Shown here one piece after another: positions 6,580-59,241 of a stretch of 64,000 nt of DNA. The notes beneath the pieces are model-generated. The model ran no database searches, was not told the DNA's origin, and saw only the letters and a program-made list of their open reading frames with translations. Source of the stretch: Mesoflavibacter sp. Its GTDB lineage: Bacteria; Pseudomonadota; Alphaproteobacteria; UBA8366; Aestuariispiraceae. The translations under genes and the position numbers were made by a program. The stretch's first letter is position 1. Each line of letters begins with the position of its first letter. The DNA lies in the NCBI GenBank assembly GCA_017792345.1, contig CP051228.1, forward strand, positions 4,556,148 through 4,620,147. Direction: 5' to 3'.

Positions 6580-9500
6580 TCAGGAAGCACTGACCTGGAC
6601 GTTCGGCGGTTCAGGCGGCGCGAACAGGCGGTCGCGGTACTCCGTCAGGAAATTGTCGAACCGCTGCGCGCCGATCAACTGATCGACGGTTTGCAGCACG
6701 TCGCCGCCCGTCGGCGGGCGTTCCTGATTGGTGATATAGTCGAAAACGCCCGACAGGCTGCTATTCGCCATGGTCGGTCCCCATAGGTCCACCAGATCGC
6801 GCAACCCGTCGCGGTCGTTGTTCTGATACAGCGCCACGGCCCAATTCACGACATAGCGCGCGGGTTGCCCCTCGATGCCCTCCGCCGGATCGGCTGGCGG
6901 GTTCCCCGCGAGCCGTTGCAGGACCTTCGCGGATTCCTGCCAATTTTCGGTCTGACGGTAGATGTCCCGGCGCAGCATATCGGCCTCCAGGCTGACATCG
7001 CCGGCCAGTTCCTTGATGGCCTCGTCATAATCGCCCAATTGGAACTTGGCGCGCGCGCGAAGACGGTCCCTGTCGGCCCGCAATCCCGGGTCGATCTCCA
7101 GGAAATCCAAGTCCCCGCCGCCTTTCGATAGGGCTTCCTCCGCCATGCGCGGTTCGTCGTCCAGGAGATAGATCAGCGCGAGCTTGGAACTCAACCGCAC
7201 CCGTTCTTCGCCCGGCGGCAGCCGGTTCTCGTCGGCCAGCAACTCTTCGAGTTTCTCCGCCGCCTCTTCCAAAAGATCGATCGCCGCCAACCGGTCGGCA
7301 ATGTTCTCGATCAGCCTGTCGCCCGCCACACCGGCCGGTGTCAGTTCCTTGAATTCCTCATAGAGCGCCAGGGCGCGCAGCGGCGCCAGATCGTCAACGC
7401 CCCCTTCCAGGAACAGTTGCTTGAAGACCTCGGTCATCTCGCCGGCCAGGTCTTCCGCGACCGGATCGCCGGGGAAATACTTTACCGCCGTTCGATAAAC
7501 ATCCAGCCCCTCGAAATAGTCCGGCTGCCTCAGATACAATTCGCCGAGGCTGCGCAGAAGGTAGAGTTCCGTCCGATCGCCCCGCCAGGCGTAGCGCAGA
7601 CGTTCCATCCGCTCCAAGGCCTCGTCATCGTCCATCAGGCCCTGCCGCAGTCCAAGGCGGATCCAGGCTAGTTCCGCCTGGTAGGCGTATTTGCGATCGC
7701 CGCTCGCCATCACCTCTTGGAAGATTTCCTCCGCCAGCGTGAAATCGGTCTTTGCGACCGCCAAACGCCCGCGATGGTAATCCAGCGCCGCCCGCTGCCC
7801 CTTCGTCAACGCGCCGCGATCCAGTTCCAGTTGGTCGATCCAGGCTTCCGCGCCGTGCAGGTTCTTGTTCGCGAAGGCGGTTTCGATACGCAACAGGCCG
7901 AGATGCGCCTTCAGCGGGAAAGGATAGCGCGTCAGCAGACTGTCGCCCGGTCCGAACGCGTCGCTGGCAGGGCCGTAGAGACCTTCCTGGGCCAGCGCCG
8001 CACCGCGCCAGATCGCCGCTTCCGCAAACCCGTCGAGACGCGGGTCGTTCAGTAATCCGCGCGCCTGCTCGCTGCGCCCCGCCAGAACGGCGGCGGCGGC
8101 ATGCAGCGCCTGATTCTCCGGGCGCTGCATGAGCTGACTGTCGGACTTCTCCACCACACGCAGGACGCCAAGAGCCTCCTGGCCCCGGTCATGGGCCATC
8201 ATGAACCCGGCGAAGTCCAGCCGCGCCGTATTGATCTTCTCGTCCGGCACTTCCGACAGAGATTGCACCAACGCCCGCTGGGATTGCTGGAACTCAGCCT
8301 GGCTGCCGCGCATCAGGCCGGCCAGATCGAAAAGCCGCCGCGCGCTGAGGATCGGTCCGGAAGCTATCGGCGCTTCCGGTGCGATCGCGGTAATGGCTAG
8401 GCCGTCCGGGTCGCTGATCTGATAACCGTCGAAATTGCGATCCAGCAGGACCGTATCGGACAGCCGGACCATGGCGAGCCCTTGCGCGCTGGGCAGCAGT
8501 TCGAATTCCGGATAGCGGCGAAGACCGTCTACGCCGGACCCGGATTCGTGAAATGTGGCGACGCGCATCACGTCGCCCATTTCCGGATCGGGCACGTTCA
8601 GGGCCGCACCGGGATCGTCGCTGGGGAAGAGCAGATGCGGCCCGATCTCGGACGTCACATCGGCGGCAATCGGCGCCTGACTGATAGGGCGCAGCGGTGC
8701 GTTGACGAAATCCACGACCCAGGTGAAGCCTTCACGCCGGACGCGGACATTGACGTTCCGATCCGAAACCTGGGCACGCAATACGGTCGCGCCGGATACC
8801 GGCAGCTGGTCGACCCGTTCAACGATTGGCGCGCCCTTGGCCCTCAATTCCGCCAGTTCGATAGGCCGCGACGCGTCGAAAACGATCCAGATATTGTCTG
8901 CCCGACGGAATACGGCGGCGCCGACATTCTGGTCCCATTCAAAGACAAAATCGAATATCGGCGGTCCGGCATCGTCCTGCGCCGCAGTGGGCGTTTCCGA
9001 AGCCGGTTGATCGGATTGTGCGGTCTCCGTCGGCGTCGGCGCCGGGACGGGCTCTCGTTGAGCAGGTTCAGCCGCCGCCTGCTCGGCCGGTGCCGGTTCC
9101 GGCGGTGGCGGAACGTTCGGGACCTCCGGGGTCATACCGTCGCGAAAGGCGATGGTCCCCTCTTGCAACGCCTCGGCCAGGGCCGCCTGACTTCGCGCCT
9201 CCTGCTGCGCTTCCGGCAGTTCCTGGCGCGGTGTTTCCGCCACTTCAGGCGTGGGGGGCGCGGGTGTTTCCGTCTGGGCCGGGGGTGCGGCGGCTTCCGG
9301 CGTAGGCGCCTCAGGTTGCGGTGCCTGCGGCAGTTGGGCGACAGCCAGCGGCTCGGCGGCTACGTTGCGGATCCTGGCGTCCGCCAGAACATCCAGAACG
9401 ACCTTCTCTTCCAGCGGAAAGTGACGCAGTTCTGCAGCGGCCGGCACCGCGAAGGTGATCACCGTTCGATCGGCCGACGGCACCGCCGCGGCGACCCGAA

Positions 9501-10143
9501 TGCCCGGCGGCAGGGTCTCGCCCAACGCCGCAACATCGATGCGTGCCGCCCGGCCGAAATCGACGGTGACGGCGCGACCGTCCCGATCGACCGAATAAGT
9601 CGTCGCGTTCGGCCAGTCGAAGACGATGCGGGTATAGTTCGGATGTTCCCCGACGCGAACGCTCAACGGAATGGCTTCCGCCGGGGCGGGTACGGCGACT
9701 TGCGGCGCGGCCTGTGCCGATTGCGATGGGGCCGAGGGCGCAGCGGCAGGGGCCTGTTCCGTGACCGTCGCTGCCTGACGCAGATCCACCACGATCGAGT
9801 TCTCGTTGGTGAAATCGCCCAGCGACATCGGTCCGGTCAATTGGAAGGTCAGCGACTGCCCGCCCGGCGCGGCCGTCGCCTGCGCGATGTAATCGCCCAA
9901 GCGCTCCCGGATCGGCGCCAGATCCACGGTCAGGGCGCGGTCGAAGCGAATGGTCAGCACCTGGCCGTCGATCGCGGCGGTATACCCAACGGCGCTGGGC
10001 CAGTCGAAAACAATCCGGGCAAAGTCGGAATGCTGCCAGGCCCGGATACGCACGGCGTCCTGCGCCCACGCCAATGGCAGCGCGACCGACGACATCAGGG
10101 CGGCAAGCAATCCAGCGCGTATCAGGGGGCGGTACGACCTCAT
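6580..10143 (-). CDS. Giant periplasmic AMIN-like/TPR-like protein coupled to MotB
   Basis: 1187 residues with a signal peptide (1-27, cut after AWA). Two AMIN-like modules follow, sharing a near-identical RIVFDWP core (43-49 and 172-178). A Pro/Ala-rich spacer of about 130 residues leads to a third, shorter module near 395-430. From about 620 to the end the sequence is alpha-helical with TPR-like spacing (for example DFTLAEEIFQEVMASGD and YDEAIKELAGDV). AMIN domains are known to bind peptidoglycan or outer-membrane components. Its ATG overlaps the stop of motB by ATGA, so it belongs to the motor operon. I infer a periplasmic stator accessory, perhaps a functional counterpart of rhizobial MotC. 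I do not recognise a named orthologue. Confidence 0.85.
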   Translation of the reverse strand: MRSYRPLIRAGLLAALMSSVALPLAWAQDAVRIRAWQHSDFARIVFDWPSAVGYTAAIDGQVLTIRFDRALTVDLAPIRERLGDYIAQATAAPGGQSLTFQLTGPMSLGDFTNENSIVVDLRQAATVTEQAPAAAPSAPSQSAQAAPQVAVPAPAEAIPLSVRVGEHPNYTRIVFDWPNATTYSVDRDGRAVTVDFGRAARIDVAALGETLPPGIRVAAAVPSADRTVITFAVPAAAELRHFPLEEKVVLDVLADARIRNVAAEPLAVAQLPQAPQPEAPTPEAAAPPAQTETPAPPTPEVAETPRQELPEAQQEARSQAALAEALQEGTIAFRDGMTPEVPNVPPPPEPAPAEQAAAEPAQREPVPAPTPTETAQSDQPASETPTAAQDDAGPPIFDFVFEWDQNVGAAVFRRADNIWIVFDASRPIELAELRAKGAPIVERVDQLPVSGATVLRAQVSDRNVNVRVRREGFTWVVDFVNAPLRPISQAPIAADVTSEIGPHLLFPSDDPGAALNVPDPEMGDVMRVATFHESGSGVDGLRRYPEFELLPSAQGLAMVRLSDTVLLDRNFDGYQISDPDGLAITAIAPEAPIASGPILSARRLFDLAGLMRGSQAEFQQSQRALVQSLSEVPDEKINTARLDFAGFMMAHDRGQEALGVLRVVEKSDSQLMQRPENQALHAAAAVLAGRSEQARGLLNDPRLDGFAEAAIWRGAALAQEGLYGPASDAFGPGDSLLTRYPFPLKAHLGLLRIETAFANKNLHGAEAWIDQLELDRGALTKGQRAALDYHRGRLAVAKTDFTLAEEIFQEVMASGDRKYAYQAELAWIRLGLRQGLMDDDEALERMERLRYAWRGDRTELYLLRSLGELYLRQPDYFEGLDVYRTAVKYFPGDPVAEDLAGEMTEVFKQLFLEGGVDDLAPLRALALYEEFKELTPAGVAGDRLIENIADRLAAIDLLEEAAEKLEELLADENRLPPGEERVRLSSKLALIYLLDDEPRMAEEALSKGGGDLDFLEIDPGLRADRDRLRARAKFQLGDYDEAIKELAGDVSLEADMLRRDIYRQTENWQESAKVLQRLAGNPPADPAEGIEGQPARYVVNWAVALYQNNDRDGLRDLVDLWGPTMANSSLSGVFDYITNQERPPTGGDVLQTVDQLIGAQRFDNFLTEYRDRLFAPPEPPNVQVSAS

Positions 10144-10955
10144 TGGCCCCGGGCCTCCGGCACAATAACGATATCGACCCGCCGCGCGAGTTCGAAGCGG
10201 CGGGTTTCCGGGATGTCCCGGTCAATGTGACGATAGACCGAGTCCGCCTGTCCCAAAACCGACAAATCGCCGCTATAGCCTGCTTGTTCCAAGGACTTAG
10301 CGACTGCCAAGGCTCGCGCCAGACTGACCGCCCAACGATCCTGGTACGGCGAGTCCGGCGGCAGCGGTTCCGGTGAGGTATGGCCGCGAATGTCCAGCCT
10401 GTTCCCGAACTGACGGAACACGGCAGCCAAGCTCGACATGGTCCGGATTCCCGTCTCGTTCAACGTTGCGTCAGACCCGTCGAAATACTTATCCGTCGGC
10501 AGGGACAGGACCAGTTGATCCTCCAGTCCCGTCATCCGGATATCGGCCAACAGAGGATCGCCCCCCAGTTTCTCGTTCAGTATCCGCTCCAGATAACCGG
10601 TGGGAAAGGCGGGGATCAGATCGATCCGCGTGATCGTCCGTTCCCCCACCGGCGTCGGTTCGCCCGGCTTAACCGGCTCGTCCCGCGTCGCCAGAATGGA
10701 AATGACCGCATCCCATTTCTCGGACTGAAGATGCGACATGGAATACAGCATGACGAAAAAGGCCAGCATCAACGCCGCCACGTCGCCGAACGTCACCAGC
10801 CAGATCGGCGATTTCTCGACCAGATCCTCGGGAATGCCCTCATCGTCCAGCACCTCCCCGGTGGATTCCGGCTGTCTTTCGACCGGACCCTCGGGGAATG
10901 CGTTCTCCGCGTCGGGCTCCTCAGGCTGCGCCTGCAACTGAAACATGTCGCTCAT
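10140..10955 (-). CDS. motB: MotB/PomB-like stator protein with OmpA-like domain
   Basis: Stator B subunit: 271 residues with a long acidic cytoplasmic tail (1-50) and a single transmembrane helix (51-73). The ion-carrying aspartate is D58 in WLVTFGDVAALMLAFFVML. The C-terminal OmpA-like domain binds peptidoglycan (LDIRGHTS and RRVDIVIV motifs). It overlaps the upstream MotB-like gene by 4 nt and the downstream giant gene by 4 nt. The likely A subunit is the MotA-like protein encoded at 58.4 kb, in a different operon. I cannot tell whether it uses protons or sodium. Confidence 0.9.
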   Translation of the reverse strand: MSDMFQLQAQPEEPDAENAFPEGPVERQPESTGEVLDDEGIPEDLVEKSPIWLVTFGDVAALMLAFFVMLYSMSHLQSEKWDAVISILATRDEPVKPGEPTPVGERTITRIDLIPAFPTGYLERILNEKLGGDPLLADIRMTGLEDQLVLSLPTDKYFDGSDATLNETGIRTMSSLAAVFRQFGNRLDIRGHTSPEPLPPDSPYQDRWAVSLARALAVAKSLEQAGYSGDLSVLGQADSVYRHIDRDIPETRRFELARRVDIVIVPEARGQ

Positions 10956-11758
10956 TGTGCGACACTCCCCGCGCTCTGATCTGTCGGCGCGAAGGTCATC
11001 CGCGCGGCATCCGCGGAACGGATGAAGAAGCGGAATCGGATGCGGGACTCGTTCCCCTTGCGAATACCGACCTCGATATTGTCGGGCGGCGTGCCGCCAT
11101 CAATCAACGACTGTGCCAGAACGCCGACCCGCGCGAAGGCCAGTTCCGTTCCGTTCAGATCCGGCGCATTGCCGAAATTCGCATCCGGATCCTGCGGGTC
11201 GACGACTTGATCGCCCGCCGCCGGAGGCGCCGGCCGCGCCGATGTCGGCGCCACCGCGTTCAAGCTGTCGACGAACAGGACCGCCTGCATGATGACGACC
11301 TGATCCGGGATGCGCGACGACAGAACATAGGACGTCGCCTTGACCAGATCCTGGCGGTCGCCCCGGACCTGCGCCTGACCGCCGACGAAGAGCTGAATGA
11401 CAGGCAATTCCACGACGATATGACGGCCATTCGTGACGCGTTCGACCTTCACGAAGGGGATTTCGGTCAGCCAGAGCTTCTCGACTTCCTCGATCACCTG
11501 TTCCGGTTCCAGCACCGGCCCTAGGGTCGAAACCAGAATCTCGGCCTTCTCGTCCGGATCGGTTTCGCTTTGGAAGGTTGCGGCGACGGAGCTCAAGACA
11601 TCGCGCGACTTGGTCTCGCGCAGGGTCGAAATGGTATTCAGCAAGATAAAGAAGGCCAACAATAGGAGAAACAGGCTCAGAAACATGAGCGGGCCGGTCT
11701 CCTTGCGTACCGGCAGCGGATCCTTGTCTTCCCCGTCGTCTTCGAACTCGTCGATCAT
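10952..11758 (-). CDS. MotB-like membrane protein lacking the ion-binding aspartate
   Basis: 268 residues with a short acidic N-terminus, one transmembrane helix (22-44) and a periplasmic domain of about 220 residues. The helix aligns with that of the next gene through the shared LAFF. At the position of D58 it carries S28, and no acidic residue is present in the membrane span. The C-terminal part (ELAFARVGVLAQSLIDGG, then RIRFRFFI) resembles a diverged OmpA/MotB fold. It is the first gene of a three-gene set with 4-nt overlaps. Inference: a non-conducting MotB paralogue that may pair with MotB or anchor the stator. Confidence 0.75.
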   Translation of the reverse strand: MIDEFEDDGEDKDPLPVRKETGPLMFLSLFLLLLAFFILLNTISTLRETKSRDVLSSVAATFQSETDPDEKAEILVSTLGPVLEPEQVIEEVEKLWLTEIPFVKVERVTNGRHIVVELPVIQLFVGGQAQVRGDRQDLVKATSYVLSSRIPDQVVIMQAVLFVDSLNAVAPTSARPAPPAAGDQVVDPQDPDANFGNAPDLNGTELAFARVGVLAQSLIDGGTPPDNIEVGIRKGNESRIRFRFFIRSADAARMTFAPTDQSAGSVAQ

Positions 11759-11946: not shown

Positions 11947-12609
11947 ATGAGGTTCGCTCAAAGACAGCGAACCCGGCGGGAGGTTGGATTGCCCATACGC
12001 ACCGAAGCGGCTGCCTTAGCGACCGCTATTTTTCTCTCAATCAATGCCTTCGCAGCCCTACCGGCGGCTGGAGAGCCCCTGTCCTCTGACATTGTCGACG
12101 CGCAGGTCGTGGACGATATCCGCCTTTGGCTGGCCAACCCGGTCGTCGGCATTCTGATCGACGCTCAGAACAAGCGCCTCGGCTCGATGGCGCAGGACCG
12201 AATTGACGCGCTGGACGGACAATGGCGTGAGGAACGCGAGAAAGACGATCAGCCTCTGATCGCGGCCACGCTCAGCAATCCCCTGTCGATCTATGTCACG
12301 CAGGTGCAGGCCGGATCGGTCGGGCTTTATACCGAAATCATCGTCATGGACGCCAAAGGCCTGAATGTCGGGCAAAGCTCCGTCACCTCCGACTTTTGGC
12401 AGGGGGATGAGGCGAAGTTTCAAAAGACATATCCCGTTGCGCCGGCTGCGGTCTTCGTCGACGAGGCGGAGTTCCATGACGGATCCGGCACCTGGCGCGC
12501 ACAGGTCAACCTGTCGATCGCGAACGCGTCCGGCGCCGCAATCGGCGCTGTCACTGTCGAGGTCAATCTAACGGAACTGGCGCGGCGCCAAGCCTTGGCT
12601 GGCTCTTAA
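11947..12609 (+). CDS. Secreted Cache/PDC-like protein upstream of a chemoreceptor
   Basis: About 200-220 residues with an N-terminal hydrophobic signal sequence and no further membrane segment, so probably periplasmic. The C-terminal half reads like a PDC/Cache sensor fold: VYVTQ-like strand, [32 protein letters not shown], then [10 protein letters not shown]. The start is uncertain. ATG 11947 has no clear ribosome site. TTG 11989 has GGGAGG 5 nt upstream and gives a tidier signal peptide. It is 25 nt from the following chemoreceptor, so the two are probably co-transcribed. A ligand-binding role for that receptor is inference. Confidence 0.75.
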
Positions 12610-12634
12610 CCCTTACAGCACGGGAGGACGCGAG

Positions 12635-14320
12635 ATGGGTTTTATCTCCAATGCCAGAATCCCCGCAAAAATCTTCGCCTGCTTCGGAATTCTGGTTTTG
12701 ATCATGCTGATCGTGGGCGGTCTCAACCTCTTCGCAGTCAACCGACTCCACGAGGCGGAACTCCGTGTGATCCAGATCGGAGAGAACCACGCCGAATTCA
12801 GGTCTCTCGAGGAACATCTGAGCGGTCACCGCGACGCCATGCTGACCTTCCTGATCACCGGGGACCGTGCCGCCGCGGGCCGGGCCGAGACAGAGTTGAG
12901 TGCCGCGCACAAATCCCTCGTGGCGCTGGCCGACATGATTGGATCCGACAGCCCGTTGGCGGCCGAAATTGCCGGGATGGAAACGCTGCTGACCCAAGTC
13001 CAGGCAGAATTTATCAGCCCGCAACTGGCACTGATGCGGTCTTATGAAACCGTCAATCATGCCCGTGCGCTGGAAGCGACCGGCGCGCCGGCCGCCCTCT
13101 TCGGCCAAATCAACGGCCGGGCCGAAGCCGCCGCCGCAATACTGGATGCGGACCTGGGAAATGCGACGACCCAGCAGTCGGCCGCGATCACTTTGATTAC
13201 GACAACCGTCATCGCCGGGGGGATCCTGTCGGTCATCCTGGCCGTGGTCTTCGGAGCCGCCCTGTCGCGTATGATCGCAACGCCGATCTCTGCGATGACC
13301 GGCACGATGCGGAAACTGGCGGATGGTGAAACCGATCTGGACCTGAAGGGGGACCGTCGCCACGACGAGATCGGCGATATGGCGCGGGCGTTGCTGATAT
13401 TCCGGGACAATAAGATCGAGGCGGACAGGCTCGCCGAAGAACGGGAGCGCGAACAGGAGGAAAAAGAACGACGCGTCGCCATGGTGGCCGTCCGGACGCG
13501 CGAGTTCGACGCCGCCGTATCCGACCTTCTGCGCGCCTTCGCGGATGCCGGCGGTCAGATGACCCGTGCAGCGGAACGCATGTCCGCCAGCGCCGCCACG
13601 ACAACGGACCAGTCCAACGCCGTTGCGGCCGCGGCGGAGGAAAGCAGCACCAATGTGCAAACCGTCGCCACCGCGGCGGAACAACTCGCCGCGTCCATTA
13701 CGGAGATCGGCCGCCAAATGGCGCATTCAACGGCCATTACGCGAAATGGCGTTCAACAGGCCGGCCGCGCCAATGAAATCGTTGCGGGACTGGAACGCAG
13801 CGCCCAGAAAATCGGTGAAGTCAGCCAGATGATCAAGGAGATCACCGAGCAGACCAATCTGCTGGCACTCAACGCGACGATCGAGGCCGCGCGGGCCGGG
13901 GAAGCCGGCAAGGGCTTCGCCATCGTCGCCGAGGAAGTCAAATCCCTGGCCAGTCAGACCGGCAAGGCAACCGAGGACATCACCGGGCAGATTGAGGACA
14001 TTCAGGCGGCGACCCGGGAATCGGTCGAGATCATGCGTGCGATCGTGACGACCATTCAGGAAATCGACAATGTCTCGTCGGCCGTTGCGGCCGCCATTGA
14101 AGAACAGAACTCCGCGACCGACGAAATCGCCAGAAATGTGGAACAGGCTGCCGGCGGCACCGAGATGGTGACGAACAACATCGTGTCGGTGTCGCAGGCC
14201 GCCCGGGAATCCGGGGAAACGGCGGATACCGTCCGGCAGGCGGCTCTTGCGCTGGAGGAACGGTCGGAGAGCCTGAAGTCTGAAGTGGATAAGTTCCTGA
14301 CGGCAATGCGGGCTGCGTGA
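12635..14320 (+). CDS. Methyl-accepting chemotaxis protein
   Basis: 561-residue transmembrane chemoreceptor. Transmembrane helix 1 is at about 10-33. A helical periplasmic domain (about 34-185) of four-helix-bundle or CHASE3 type follows. Helix 2 is at about 188-212, then a HAMP domain (about 212-265). The signalling domain carries the hairpin motif [20 protein letters not shown] followed by [24 protein letters not shown] lies just before the ATG. No C-terminal CheR-docking pentapeptide is present. It follows the Cache-like secreted protein. Confidence 0.96.
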
Positions 14321-14324
14321 CGCG

Positions 14325-14825
14325 CTACGCGTCCAGCAGCATCAGGTCAGTATCGCCGGGCTTCGCCCCCGCGGCGGTCAGCATGGCATGAACCTGGCCG
14401 CGATGATGGGTCTGGTGATTGAAGAAATGGGCCACCAGAAGGGCGCATTCATGACGCAGATGCTTCTGAGCCGCCCCCGAATACCATTCCAGATGACCTG
14501 ACAGCCATTCCGAAGACAGCCCGTCGGCCCAGGTCTGAATCTCAACGTCCAACGCTTGGCGCCGTTCGACGAGTTCGCCCCAATCCACGACATAGGAGGC
14601 GGATTCACCGATCCCGACATCCGGTTTCGGACAGGTCGAGAAGCGGCTCATCCACATCTGATCGCCCCACAGCAAATGGCTGAGCGTACCGTGAATCGAC
14701 CCAAAGAACGCGCCGCGCCCGGCGTTTCGTTCCGCCGGGCCCAACGAATCCGCTGCCGTATAAATATTCTTGTTTTGCCAAGTATTGTAACGGGCCATCG
14801 TCCGGGCAAAGGCGGCGTCGATCAT
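14325..14825 (-). CDS. DinB-family putative metal-dependent hydrolase
   Basis: 166 residues of the DinB four-helix bundle. The metal-ligand histidines are visible: H in GTLSHLLWGD and the HHRGQ motif in FFNHQTHHRGQVH. Members include thiol transferases and many uncharacterised proteins. It is convergent with the chemoreceptor (4 nt between stops) and lies 47 nt after cheY, so it is probably the last gene of that transcript. No link to motility is evident. Confidence 0.92.
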   Translation of the reverse strand: MIDAAFARTMARYNTWQNKNIYTAADSLGPAERNAGRGAFFGSIHGTLSHLLWGDQMWMSRFSTCPKPDVGIGESASYVVDWGELVERRQALDVEIQTWADGLSSEWLSGHLEWYSGAAQKHLRHECALLVAHFFNHQTHHRGQVHAMLTAAGAKPGDTDLMLLDA

Positions 14826-14872
14826 CCTATGCCGCCCTGTGGACCTTGGCCGTCAGCATCACGCTTTCGGTG

Positions 14873-15259
14873 TCAGAAGTTACCGATAACAGACGTCAGC
14901 TTCGCCTTCAGGGTCGCCGCGTTGAACGGCTTGACGATATAGTTGCTGACCCCGGCCTCTTTCGCGGCAATGACGTTTTCCGTCTTGCTCTCGGCGGTGA
15001 TCATGATGAAGGGAAGGTTCTTCATCTTTTCGTCGGACCGCACTTCGCGCAGCAACTGAAGCCCGGTCATCGGTTCCATGTTCCAGTCCGAAATGACCAG
15101 GCCGTATTCCTTGCCGCGTAGCTTCGTCAGCGCGTCGCTGCCGTCCGTCGCTTCATCGACATTGTTGAATCCAAGCTGCTTCAGCAGATTGCGGATAATC
15201 CGCAACATCGTCTTATAGTCATCCACGATCAGGATGTTCATGTTCATGTCGACTGCCAT
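14873..15259 (-). CDS. cheY: CheY-like single-domain response regulator
   Basis: 128-residue receiver domain with the full active site: D13 and D14, phospho-acceptor D58 in VISDWNM, T88 in MITAES and K110 in YIVKPF. There is no output domain. By analogy it binds FliM when phosphorylated and changes motor rotation. I chose ATG 15259, preceded by GGAG at 8 nt; a GTG at 15277 is in frame. It lies downstream of the fliL-fliM-DUF6468-motE genes after a 190-nt AT-rich gap that may hold its own promoter. Confidence 0.93.
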   Translation of the reverse strand: MAVDMNMNILIVDDYKTMLRIIRNLLKQLGFNNVDEATDGSDALTKLRGKEYGLVISDWNMEPMTGLQLLREVRSDEKMKNLPFIMITAESKTENVIAAKEAGVSNYIVKPFNAATLKAKLTSVIGNF

Positions 15260-15449
15260 AGCCCTACTCCGCCTCACCTCTCGCCCAGTCTTACGGACCG
15301 GCTGGGATCCAAATTTATGCCAAACGTTGTTGGCCTCACCGATTTAACAGGTAGAACCTATCGGCTCACCCCGCTCGTGCAATATTTATATACACGTATT
15401 CTTTACCCGAAGTTAACAGTACAAACCCGCCCAACAGGAAATTTCCGCA
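15260..15449. other. Intergenic region with a nested hairpin between motE and cheY
   Basis: 190 bases with an AT-rich core. At 15337-15363 a nested inverted repeat (CCGAT...ATCGG around AGGT-AGA-ACCT) could fold in RNA of either strand but has no T-run. On the minus strand, TTAACTTCGGGTAAA near 15400-15415 is one base from a CtrA-type TTAA-N7-TTAA. No assignment is firm. Confidence 0.4.
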
Positions 15450-16103
15450 TTACTGCCGAATCTCTGGAAGCGCTTCTCGCGCATCGATTTCCTGGGTGAC
15501 GATGACCGCCTTTTCCGGGTCCATTGCCTCCAGAATGGGTGCCAGTTTTCGCTCACTCATGCCCCGGATCACACTCAAGATCGTGTCCAACTCCATTGTA
15601 TTGAAGATCGCCGCGGCGCGCTTCGGTTTCATGTTGGAATAGACGCGTTGCAGACGGGCGCTTTCCTCGTCTTCCTGATTCTCATAGCGTGCGAGAAGCT
15701 GTTGTATCTCGTCGCGAATACCTTCCAGGCGCTTCTGGGTTTCGGTCAGTCGGGTCTCGACGACCGACAGCATCGCCTCGCGCTGAGCCAATTCGCGTTC
15801 CCGCTCTTCAAGCTCCTGGCGCCGTTCCGCCAGACTGTTGGCCAGCCGCAATTCGGTGGGATGCATGTTGTCCGACCCGTCGATGATCGGAACATCGCTG
15901 TCGTCCAGTTCCAGCGGCACCGGTTCTTCCCCGGTGTCTCCGGGGACCGGCGGTACGGCATCGGCGTCCTGGGCGATCGCCAGGCCGTTCGAGAAACCGG
16001 AAGGCGCCGGATCGTCGGACAGCGATTCCCAAATGGAGCCGGCGCGGAAGGACAAGCCCACCGCGGCCAGAATAATCGCTGCTGGTATCAGACGAATGCG
16101 CAT
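15450..16103 (-). CDS. motE: MotE-family protein (MgtE N-domain-like)
   Basis: 217 residues. An N-terminal signal or anchor helix (1-22) is followed by an acidic linker and a coiled coil (about 85-150, rich in ERRQELEERERELAQRE-type heptads). The C-terminal domain resembles the MgtE intracellular N-domain (YSNMKPKRAAAIFNTM and MDPEKAVIVT). In Sinorhizobium MotE is a periplasmic chaperone for MotC, which controls the stator. Here the candidate MotC-like partner would be the giant protein at 6580-10143 (inference). It follows the DUF6468 gene by 10 nt. Confidence 0.85.
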   Translation of the reverse strand: MRIRLIPAAIILAAVGLSFRAGSIWESLSDDPAPSGFSNGLAIAQDADAVPPVPGDTGEEPVPLELDDSDVPIIDGSDNMHPTELRLANSLAERRQELEERERELAQREAMLSVVETRLTETQKRLEGIRDEIQQLLARYENQEDEESARLQRVYSNMKPKRAAAIFNTMELDTILSVIRGMSERKLAPILEAMDPEKAVIVTQEIDAREALPEIRQ

Positions 16104-16113
16104 CGACGCTTTG

Positions 16114-16647
16114 TCACCTCATATCCTGAAGCGCCTTCAACAACTCCGACTTGGACTTGGCGCGTGCCTTCTTCGCGGCGCTTCTGTCCCGGGCCGGCGG
16201 TGGCGCTTCCGCCGGTTCCGGACGGTCTTCCGGTGCCGCGCTGAGGGCATTTCGCTTGGCCGGACGGCGTTCCGGTTCGGCCGTATCCCCGGAAGTATCG
16301 GCGGTTCGCGAAGTCGCACGGCCCGCACGGATACCCGTTTCCAGCGCGTTCGCGACCTTCTCACCGCGCTTGATCAAGAATTCCAGATCGTCGCACAGTT
16401 CCCCGGCCTTCATCGCCGACTGGCGGGCCTGATCCAGCGTGTCCCGCGCGTCGCCTTTCAGACTCTGCAGGGCTTTCTCCGCGCGCTCCGTCGCCGTGCC
16501 AAAATCCTTGATCAGAGTCTCAAGCTGTTCGCGTCCCGACCGGATCACGGCGATCTGCCGGTTCAGGCGCACACCATAATAGATCGCGACCCCCAGCAAT
16601 GCGATGAGCGCGATATCAAGTGCTATGCCCAGCGTCGAACCGACCAT
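16114..16647 (-). CDS. DUF6468-type flagellar-cluster membrane protein
   Basis: 177 residues: one N-terminal transmembrane helix (about 5-25), a cytoplasmic coiled-coil segment (about 30-110), and a disordered Ala/Arg/Pro-rich tail ending SELLKALQDMR. It matches the alphaproteobacterial DUF6468 family as I know it, which is found beside fliM. The function is unknown. The position between fliM and motE suggests a motor-associated role. Confidence 0.8.
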   Translation of the reverse strand: MVGSTLGIALDIALIALLGVAIYYGVRLNRQIAVIRSGREQLETLIKDFGTATERAEKALQSLKGDARDTLDQARQSAMKAGELCDDLEFLIKRGEKVANALETGIRAGRATSRTADTSGDTAEPERRPAKRNALSAAPEDRPEPAEAPPPARDRSAAKKARAKSKSELLKALQDMR

Positions 16648-17929: not shown

Positions 17930-18442
17930 CTATTGCACCAGCATCTTGACCAACAAAAGGTCCTTCACCGGCGTCGGTGCCAGCACCTGGCTAACCCGGC
18001 GGTACAGTTCCTCGCGCACCAGATAGGCGCCCTCGCTGCCGTTCAATTCTTCCGGGCGCAGTTCGCGCAGGAAGACGTTGAATTCCGAGACGACTTTCGG
18101 GCGCAACTGGTCCATACGTTGGACGGCCGCAGGGTCTTCGAGTTCCAATTGAACCTCGAGAACGAGAAAATTCTTCCGGGTTCCGGTGCCGCTAAGCGAC
18201 ACGGTCATTTCTTCCATTTCATAGAAGATGCCCGGCGGCTCGATCACAGGCGCCTTCGTTTCCTCGACCTGCTGCTCACCTTCCGGCGCCTCGCCGCCCA
18301 GCAGCCCGTCGAACAATCCAAGGGCAATTGCCGCACCCACCGCCCCGGCAATAAGGATCACCGGCAGCAGAATGAAGATTACCAGCTTTTTGCCGCTGAC
18401 CTTCCGCTTTACGGGGGCGTCATCGTCGTCTTCGTCGCTCAT
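17930..18442 (-). CDS. fliL: Flagellar basal body-associated protein FliL
   Basis: Single-pass membrane protein that surrounds and stabilises stators. The 170 residues start with an acidic N-terminus, then have a transmembrane helix at about 19-43 and a stomatin-like periplasmic domain ending RVSQVLAPTPVKDLLLVKMLVQ, as in FliL. I chose ATG 18442 (MSDEDDDD); the open frame to 18475 adds only unlikely residues. It is the first gene of the fliL-fliM-DUF6468-motE group. Confidence 0.94.
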   Translation of the reverse strand: MSDEDDDDAPVKRKVSGKKLVIFILLPVILIAGAVGAAIALGLFDGLLGGEAPEGEQQVEETKAPVIEPPGIFYEMEEMTVSLSGTGTRKNFLVLEVQLELEDPAAVQRMDQLRPKVVSEFNVFLRELRPEELNGSEGAYLVREELYRRVSQVLAPTPVKDLLLVKMLVQ

Positions 18443-18494
18443 ACACCAATATCCGCCAACTCTATGCTTCGGCACATTTTACCGGGCCAGACAC

Positions 18495-58404: not shown

Positions 58405-59241
58405 ATGGCAACCGATACGCAGCCGGGACAAGGCGGTCAGCGCCCCCTCACCCAGCCCGCGACGCGCGGGTCGGTCGATGTCGCGACCATCTTCGGCATC
58501 CTGGGCGCGTCGATCCTGATCGGGACCGCCATCGTTCTGGGCGGCAGCCCAAGCTCCTTCATCGATTACCCGTCCGTGCTGATCGTCATCGGCGGTACGT
58601 TCGGTGTCGTCACCGCCTGTTTTTCGCTGCGCGATATGGCAGGCGCGTTCCGAACCGTCGGCCGGACGGTGTTCCGCACCAATCTGGATGCCGGCGAGGC
58701 CGCCCTGCAATTGCTGCAGCTGGCCCAGATCGCGCGGTATCGTGGCGTTCTGGCGATTCAAAGCTATATGCCGGCGGTCGAAGATCGCGAAATGCTGCGC
58801 GCCGGTCTGGCCATGGTCGTGGACGGTACGCCGGGCGAGGATGTGGAACGCATCATGCGCCGGGAAGTCCAGGCCATCGCCCAGCGTCAGACCCGGTCCG
58901 TCTCGATCATGAAAAAGGCCGCCGAAATCTCACCGGCCATGGGTCTGATCGGTACCCTGGTCGGGCTGATCCAGATGTTGGCCAATTTGGACGACCCGAA
59001 TACGATTGGCCCGTCCATGGCGGTTGCCCTGCTGACGACCTTCTATGGTGCGTTGCTGTCCAATGTCGTTTTCACGCCGCTGGCCTCCAAGATGGAGCGC
59101 AACGCGACGGAAGAGATGCTGTTGAACCAGCTCTACGTCATGGCCGCCTCCTCCATAGGCCGGCAGGAAAACCCGCGCCGCCTTGAAATGCTGTTCAATA
59201 CCGTCCTGCCGCCGTCCCAGCGGGTGGATTATTTCGGATAA
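58405..59241 (+). CDS. motA: MotA/PomA-type stator protein
   Basis: 278 residues with four transmembrane helices. The PomA-like start is DVATIFGILGASILIGTAIVLGG with PSVLIVIGGTFG, and the conserved SPAMGLIGTLVGLIQML helix lines the channel. The sequence resembles the shorter PomA/MotP class more than E. coli MotA. The matching B subunit is not adjacent; the MotB-like genes are at 10-12 kb. It lies between fliN (17 nt) and flbD (6 nt). Confidence 0.94.
   Translation: MATDTQPGQGGQRPLTQPATRGSVDVATIFGILGASILIGTAIVLGGSPSSFIDYPSVLIVIGGTFGVVTACFSLRDMAGAFRTVGRTVFRTNLDAGEAALQLLQLAQIARYRGVLAIQSYMPAVEDREMLRAGLAMVVDGTPGEDVERIMRREVQAIAQRQTRSVSIMKKAAEISPAMGLIGTLVGLIQMLANLDDPNTIGPSMAVALLTTFYGALLSNVVFTPLASKMERNATEEMLLNQLYVMAASSIGRQENPRRLEMLFNTVLPPSQRVDYFG

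Follow-up and report, generated by a model that had tools for sequence, protein, structure and literature searches.

A conserved MotB paralogue without the ion-binding aspartate, encoded beside a canonical MotB in Alphaproteobacteria

Two overlapping MotB-like genes

The U and D genes are adjacent on the reverse strand of a 64,000-nucleotide stretch of contig CP051228.1 (positions 4,556,148 to 4,620,147; assembly GCA_017792345.1, Mesoflavibacter sp., assigned by GTDB to the Alphaproteobacteria), which is analyzed here as a whole and is called the window. Both genes encode proteins related to MotB, the B subunit of flagellar stators. The labels U and D denote the upstream and downstream genes of the window (Table 1), their products, and their homologues. 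A preliminary description of this DNA, made from the letters alone, had delimited two adjacent frames sharing 4 nucleotides, and the coordinates of both are borne out.

Around the ion site, the translated open reading frames (ORFs) of the window read ...ETGPLMFL-S28-LFLLLLAFFILLN... in U and ...PIWLVTFG-D58-VAALMLAFFVML... in D. When the two sequences are anchored on their LAFF residues, S28 of U lies opposite Asp58 of D, as the preliminary description had it, and the U helix contains neither Asp nor Glu. A better alignment that places an acidic residue in this span of the window U was sought, and none occurs among the alignments made. On this basis, a shifted alignment that hides an acid in the window U was rejected.

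Table 1. Features of the stator gene pair and associated genes in the window
Feature	Coordinates	Strand	Size	Basis
U, MotB-like protein in which Ser28 replaces the ion-binding Asp; a single transmembrane helix and a degenerate OmpA/MotB-like periplasmic domain	10952..11758	-	268 amino acids	
Membrane helix region of U, codons of residues 21-46, Ser28 replacing Asp	11621..11698	-		Sequence, AlphaFold2 helix 22-61, conservation
D, canonical MotB; has Asp58, the W-x3-F-x-D motif and an OmpA domain	10140..10955	-	271 amino acids	
Overlap of U stop and D start	10952..10955	-	4 nucleotides	ORF sequence
Orphan MotA, likely stator A partner of U and D	58405..59241	+		Elimination and co-occurrence
MotK-like protein, AMIN domain and weak TPR matches, overlaps D	6580..10143	-	1187 amino acids	Pfam; likened to MotK as described in excerpts of PMC10954123
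MotE homologue (MgtE_N domain), near U in most relatives	15450..16103	-		Domain and gene order
FliL, in the same conserved gene order of relatives	17930..18475	-		Gene order

U is a true relative of MotB. The Pfam model MotB_plug scores the window U at 18.2 bits, which is under the curated cut-off of 24, so U-type proteins are easily overlooked or mistaken for plain MotB. The same model matches 23 of 29 U proteins at E<=0.01, a count by E-value for which the cut-off is not shown protein by protein. Neither the Pfam OmpA model nor, at E<=1, the FliL domain matches the window U. The window D is above the Pfam cut-offs, with 47.4 bits for MotB_plug and 31.9 bits for OmpA. A profile of 29 U sequences aligned by hhalign with a profile of 28 D sequences gives a probability of 97.3 and an E-value of 2.7e-11 over 194 columns, which run from the helix into the OmpA domain. 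The best sequence matches of the U and D profiles in the PDB are stator B chains, comprising MotB and PomB chains in the case of U.

The predicted structure of U agrees with these matches. The AlphaFold2 model has a mean predicted local distance difference test score (pLDDT) of 75.5 and a predicted template modeling score of 0.55, with 115 of the 268 residues at a pLDDT of at least 90. Residues 22-61 form a single long helix, and the model also has an alpha/beta domain. Its top Foldseek match is the periplasmic domain of Salmonella MotB (2zov; E-value 2.0e-07, TM-score by target 0.53), and further MotB, PomB and OmpA-like domains come next in rank, so the fold predicted for this ORF is MotB-like. 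The W-x3-F-x-D motif is absent from U. Its Trp is present in 86 of 87 D proteins, and the five residues most common at that place in U are S, N, T, G and A.

The ion site in related genomes

A search of 59 genomes of near relatives with U matched 32 of them at E<=0.01. Thirty loci were read, comprising that of the window, 5 from the genus, 8 from the family, 15 from the order and 1 from elsewhere in the class; two of the matched genomes (G044 and G051, the latter read later) and a second locus in G013 fall outside this set. U precedes D in all 30 loci. The site residue of U is Ser in 23, Gly in 4 and Cys in 3, so it is nonacidic throughout, and that of D is Asp in every case.

A class-wide profile search matched 108 of 385 genomes at E<=1e-3. 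Eleven weak matches among these were not scored as U, and two genomes (G063 and G203) are counted unread. The first 86 loci (the window's own and 85 more) contain 87 U frames, with Ser at the site in 49, Gly in 23, Ala in 11, Asn in 1, Asp in 2, and one gap from a split frame. Of the 85 D frames in the same loci, 83 have Asp at the site, and the other two show an X and a gap. In the split locus, L098, U and D each occupy two frames as a result of a frameshift or an assembly error, and this locus was dropped from the tree of U, D and other MotBs, from the comparison of Asp-bearing U proteins and from the final counts. The final class set consists of the 86 loci without L098 and with four later loci. 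Its 89 U proteins have Ser in 51, Gly in 23, Ala in 11, Asn in 1 and Asp in 3 (86 of 89 nonacidic), and 86 of its 87 D proteins have Asp, the site of the last one being an unread X. Five U loci found later (L143 and L145-L148), which are not among the 89, have A, S, S, A and S.

A separate scan yielded 75 loci, which were selected by the helix motif [LM]LLAFFILL; helix conservation is therefore biased in this set. It includes loci from Thalassospira, Pelagibius, Rhodovibrio, Pacificispira, Marivibrio, Niveispirillum, Telmatospirillum, an Azospirillum metagenome-assembled genome and others. U is present in 73 loci (Ser 43, Ala 19, Gly 9, Cys 2), and D has Asp in all 75. The remaining two loci, both from Bacillota, have an ordinary MotA-MotB pair and no U. 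The genomes behind the near-relative, class-wide and separate-scan counts overlap. A tblastn search of plasmids gave no match, and a single-sequence scan of genome contigs gave no relative.

The missing Asp of U is no local accident and is more frequent than chance would allow. Together, the profile match, the predicted fold and these site counts uphold the original proposal that the pair are MotB paralogues of which one lacks the ion-carrying Asp.

Sequence constraint and phylogeny of U

U is under purifying selection. Nonsynonymous divergence (dN) is 0.119 against a synonymous divergence (dS) of 0.88 in one genome pair, and 0.039 against 0.58 in another. Among genes picked by hidden Markov model, the mean frequency of the top residue in the helix is 0.68 for U and likewise 0.68 for D; in the periplasmic part it is 0.28 for U versus 0.41 for D. 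Positions 33-37 of U each have a top-residue frequency of at least 0.83, and therefore every face of the helix is conserved. The two residues of the FF motif are kept in 87 and 86 of 89 U proteins, and the site residue (S, G, A or N) lies within a Leu-rich helix. FliL, taken from 42 of the same genomes, has 0.64 in its helix and 0.64 in the rest, in a set picked by the U helix motif and thus biased with regard to U values.

The periplasmic domain of U is degenerate. Pfam OmpA matches 1 of 29 U proteins at E<=0.01 versus 28 of 28 D proteins. Among the positions of the U/D alignment that we take to be the peptidoglycan-binding signature of OmpA, the Arg of A-R-A is retained in 74 of 89 U proteins, 81 of 89 have a gap in place of the His, and the others are mostly not kept. 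Most of this signature is lost in U.

In a quick tree of 48 U proteins, 46 D proteins and 6 other MotBs, from which the site column was left out, U forms one side of a branch with a support of 99 in the Shimodaira-Hasegawa-like approximate likelihood ratio test. The three U proteins with Asp (genomes G082, G163 and G270) are scattered across the U side, at moderately supported positions, and D retains Asp in all three genomes. These Asp-bearing proteins, at loci L112, L120 and L137, combine a D-like helix with a U-type periplasmic domain, so the U helix can accept a MotB-type motif. Their helix identities to their own D are 0.65, 0.42 and 0.65, compared with a median of 0.31 and a maximum of 0.50 in 84 ordinary pairs. 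The value of 0.42 is within the ordinary range. Among the 87 D proteins, the own D comes first in the first case, in a four-way tie, and takes ranks 23 and 8 in the other two. The three could be regains, conversions from D, or relics; gene conversion from D is possible.

Gene order and the MotA partner

U and D are closely coupled. The distance from the U stop to the Asp codon of D, a measure independent of start codons, has a median of 78 nucleotides and is at most 250 nucleotides in 152 of 153 pairs. An ATG is present at the place of the U/D overlap in 56 of the 153. A gap measured to the start codon of D leans to small values, as it used the start nearest to the U stop.

The usual order of the locus is FliL-MotE-U-D-MotK. 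In the 86 class loci, MotE-U-D-MotK is found in 50 and U-D-MotK in 18. The other 18 have MotK, both MotE and MotK, or D undetected in the fetched flanks, or have split genes (L098). All five genes are present in 63 of the 75 loci of the separate scan, in which 5-kb flanks were used where available. In the window, a chemoreceptor gene, a DinB-type gene, a CheY-type gene and a 220-amino-acid ORF (11947-15277) separate U from MotE and FliL. A DUF6468 gene (16114-16647, reverse strand) is located between MotE and FliM, in a place resembling that of pflI in the operon of Cereibacter sphaeroides.

No MotA was detected in the fetched flanks of the class U-D loci. The genome of the window has two other stator sets, one with MotA and one MotB and one with MotA and two MotBs, and all of these MotBs have Asp. 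Because these sets have their own MotB genes, the orphan MotA of the window is by elimination the likely partner of U and D. The set with two MotBs (L016, C1:4043500-4049000) consists of MotA followed by tandem MotB genes, and is thus a second two-B stator set in this genome.

The orphan MotA, U and D also co-occur, according to genome lists that were compiled by hand. Among the 385 genomes, close relatives of the window MotA (at least 180 bits) are found in 101 and U in 102; 96 genomes have both, 6 have only U and 5 have only the MotA. D is found at 90 bits or more in 80 genomes, all of which have U: 77 in the class-wide U search, one of these being a partial match at a contig end (G390), and three in which U was beside D when the locus was fetched. 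The 90-bit threshold is our own choice. Under it the profile also takes ordinary MotBs, for example at L140, L141 and L144, where an ordinary MotB is beside MotA without U.

Related clusters outside the class

Of 388 genomes drawn across the phylum, 60 gave a match at E<=1e-7. Fifty-two of the 60 do not belong to the class, and a single family accounts for 50 of these 52. Loci were read in 32 of the 52 (L263-L294). All 32 consist of MotA, then a MotB-like gene that we call U', then D, on one strand and with frames less than 200 nucleotides apart. Their MotAs score 171-205 bits against the window MotA. The U' site is Glu in 28 and Gln in 4, U' lacks the Trp motif, and the neighboring D has Asp; three of these D proteins were at first grouped with U' by a score threshold. 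In the third transmembrane helix (TM3) of the MotA, Met accompanies Glu (28 loci) and Phe accompanies Gln (4 loci), which counts as at most one event because the Gln rows may be one lineage.

A quick tree of 26 U, 24 D, 9 U' and 8 of the D proteins beside U' separates U from U'. A tree constrained to unite U and U' has a higher likelihood, with a P value of 0.831 in the approximately unbiased test. The MotA-U'-D cluster is the best hint that MotA, B' (an Asp-less or altered B subunit) and B form one stator.

Possible roles of U

In the best-supported reading, to which we give about even chances, the stator has U as a B' subunit of its own that has been conserved for long, and U and D form a mixed B dimer with a single carboxylate in one MotA pentamer. 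The two proteins would insert together inside the pentamer (A5-B'B). D would carry the ion and supply the wall anchor, and the small neutral residue of U might act as a permanently protonated site. The altered periplasmic domain of U would then contact D, MotE or MotK rather than the wall. In the 5:2 stator model, ten ion steps occur per turn of MotA; since a single carboxylate would be working, the mixed stator would be expected to take about five.

Several features favor this placement of U in the pore: its helix is conserved all round, the site residue is small, the genes are closely coupled and co-occur, and MotA-U'-D clusters exist outside the class. All-round conservation together with a small residue at the ion site suits a helix that must pack within a pore, and is less expected of a lipid-facing scaffold. 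The preliminary description had offered either a mixed stator B dimer or a nonconducting MotB that anchors or gates the stator. The mixed dimer is the part that is favored, and wall anchoring by U itself is disfavored by the loss of most of its OmpA peptidoglycan motif. It is also roughly a coin toss, in our judgment, whether many Alphaproteobacteria have stators with an obligately unequal B dimer, that is, natural single-carboxylate 5:2 motors, with a mixed Asp/Glu or Asp/Gln pair in the relatives outside the class.

Several observations weigh against a mixed dimer of this kind. Co-occurrence and gene order, and indeed every gene-level result, suit an accessory protein equally well. U and D of genome G174 are about 6 kb apart on opposite strands. 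Four genomes (G073, G086, G309 and G321) carry a close MotA of this type without a detected U; the fifth genome with a close MotA and no U, G278, has the Phe type. U' mostly has Glu, and therefore the pairs outside the class would not be single-carboxylate. A published model needs both MotB sites to be protonated for rotation and, in the excerpts available, is silent on whether one site suffices (PMC9389320; this and the other PMC numbers refer to excerpts of the papers).

Met in place of Phe in TM3 of MotA was considered as a pore signature tied to U and was rejected, which is a further point on the negative side. It is also found in 11 of 20 MotA loci from U-less genomes, and seven of these 11 come from genomes other than the four that combine this MotA type with a lack of U. 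In G086 and G321 (L297 and L298), the close MotA is an orphan without a detected U, and the MotA match of G086 has a stop codon.

The strongest alternative, which we nevertheless regard as unlikely, is that U acts as a scaffold that associates with the stator but stays out of the MotA pore, with a role like that of FliL or MotX/MotY. It would link D-containing stators to MotE and MotK, and the pore would contain a D homodimer. In most loci the U gene stands between those of MotE and D, and in C. sphaeroides both MotE and MotK interact with MotB2 (PMC10954123). The divergent periplasmic domain, with most peptidoglycan-binding residues gone, is also as expected for protein binding. However, conservation of the U helix extends to every face and exceeds that of the rest of U, a contrast that FliL does not show. 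The FF motif and the small site residue would hardly be needed by a lipid-facing helix.

It is distinctly improbable that U forms nonconducting MotA units of its own (A5-U2), which would occupy motor positions as brakes, place-holders or anchors and thereby tune torque. Such units would account for a complete MotB-like helix and predicted fold combined with a neutral site residue, and a single MotA type does accompany U and D. Yet they leave unexplained both the close coupling of the U and D genes and why a close D was not seen without U in the genomes sampled, and U lacks most of the wall-anchor motif that they would need. Slimmer still is the prospect that U serves D or MotA as an assembly factor or chaperone, like the stator chaperone FlgX of Campylobacter (PMC6686046), and that U departs after assembly. 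Gene order and co-occurrence fit this role, but a MotB-like fold and all-round helix conservation exceed what a chaperone appears to need. That U is a functionless, decaying duplicate fits its Pfam score and eroded OmpA motif and is next to inconceivable, given that dN is well under dS in two genome pairs and that U forms one clade retained class-wide with a fixed neighbor; a pseudogene or annotation slip is rejected on these same grounds of dN below dS, retention and neighbor.

The mixed dimer would bear on how stators work. In current rotary models with 5:2 stoichiometry, the B subunits are a homodimer whose two ion sites are taken to be equivalent. With a naturally site-less B', one could test if a single carboxylate suffices, if the second site can stay neutral permanently, and which factors fix how many ions pass per turn. 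The finding suggests that the stator of many alphaproteobacteria includes a component absent from the textbook parts list.

Comparison with known systems

Our searches of open-access papers found no description of an Asp-less MotB paralogue or of such a U/D pair (subscription papers were outside the scope). Nothing on such a pair was found in the excerpts of PMC11870540, PMC11940233, PMC9093738 and PMC7990780. A review of the E-ring treats MotE and MotK, and its available portion mentions no second MotB (PMC13023049). These results suggest that the U/D pair is a variant of the MotAB stator that was not found described before.

FliL resembles U in being a single-pass, stator-associated protein of the same gene cluster. 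U differs in lacking a FliL match, and a separate FliL gene is present.

The Fla2 system of C. sphaeroides is similar in that MotE and a protein with AMIN and TPR domains adjoin the stator genes (PMC10954123). There, MotK, which together with MotE interacts with MotB2, is needed for rotation (PMC10954123). In contrast, the operon is fliL2-pflI-motE-motA2-motK, and the excerpts describe no second MotB (PMC10954123). Another motor protein, MotF of Rhodobacter sphaeroides, is reported to be specific to Cereibacter.

The AglR-AglQ-AglS gliding motor of Myxococcus has one MotA-like and two MotB-like proteins (PMC9389320, PMC9120999), as the stator described here does by gene content and co-occurrence. 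Whether AglQ and AglS form mixed dimers is described as undecided (PMC9389320). Both AglQ and AglS have the conserved aspartate (PMC9389320), whereas here only D does, save for the three Asp-bearing U proteins.

The motA-motB1-motB2 operon of Aquifex aeolicus likewise has one motA followed by two motB genes (PMC4525482). Its MotBs are 97% identical in their N-terminal and membrane regions and differ in their periplasmic parts (PMC4525482), whereas in U and D the helix itself differs at the ion site.

The MotA5MotB2 and PomA5PomB2 stators belong to the same families as the proteins described here, and each of their B proteins consists of one transmembrane helix and an OmpA-like domain. Those stators contain two copies of one Asp-bearing B protein (PMC10954123), whereas here a second, Asp-less gene of the B type stands alongside.

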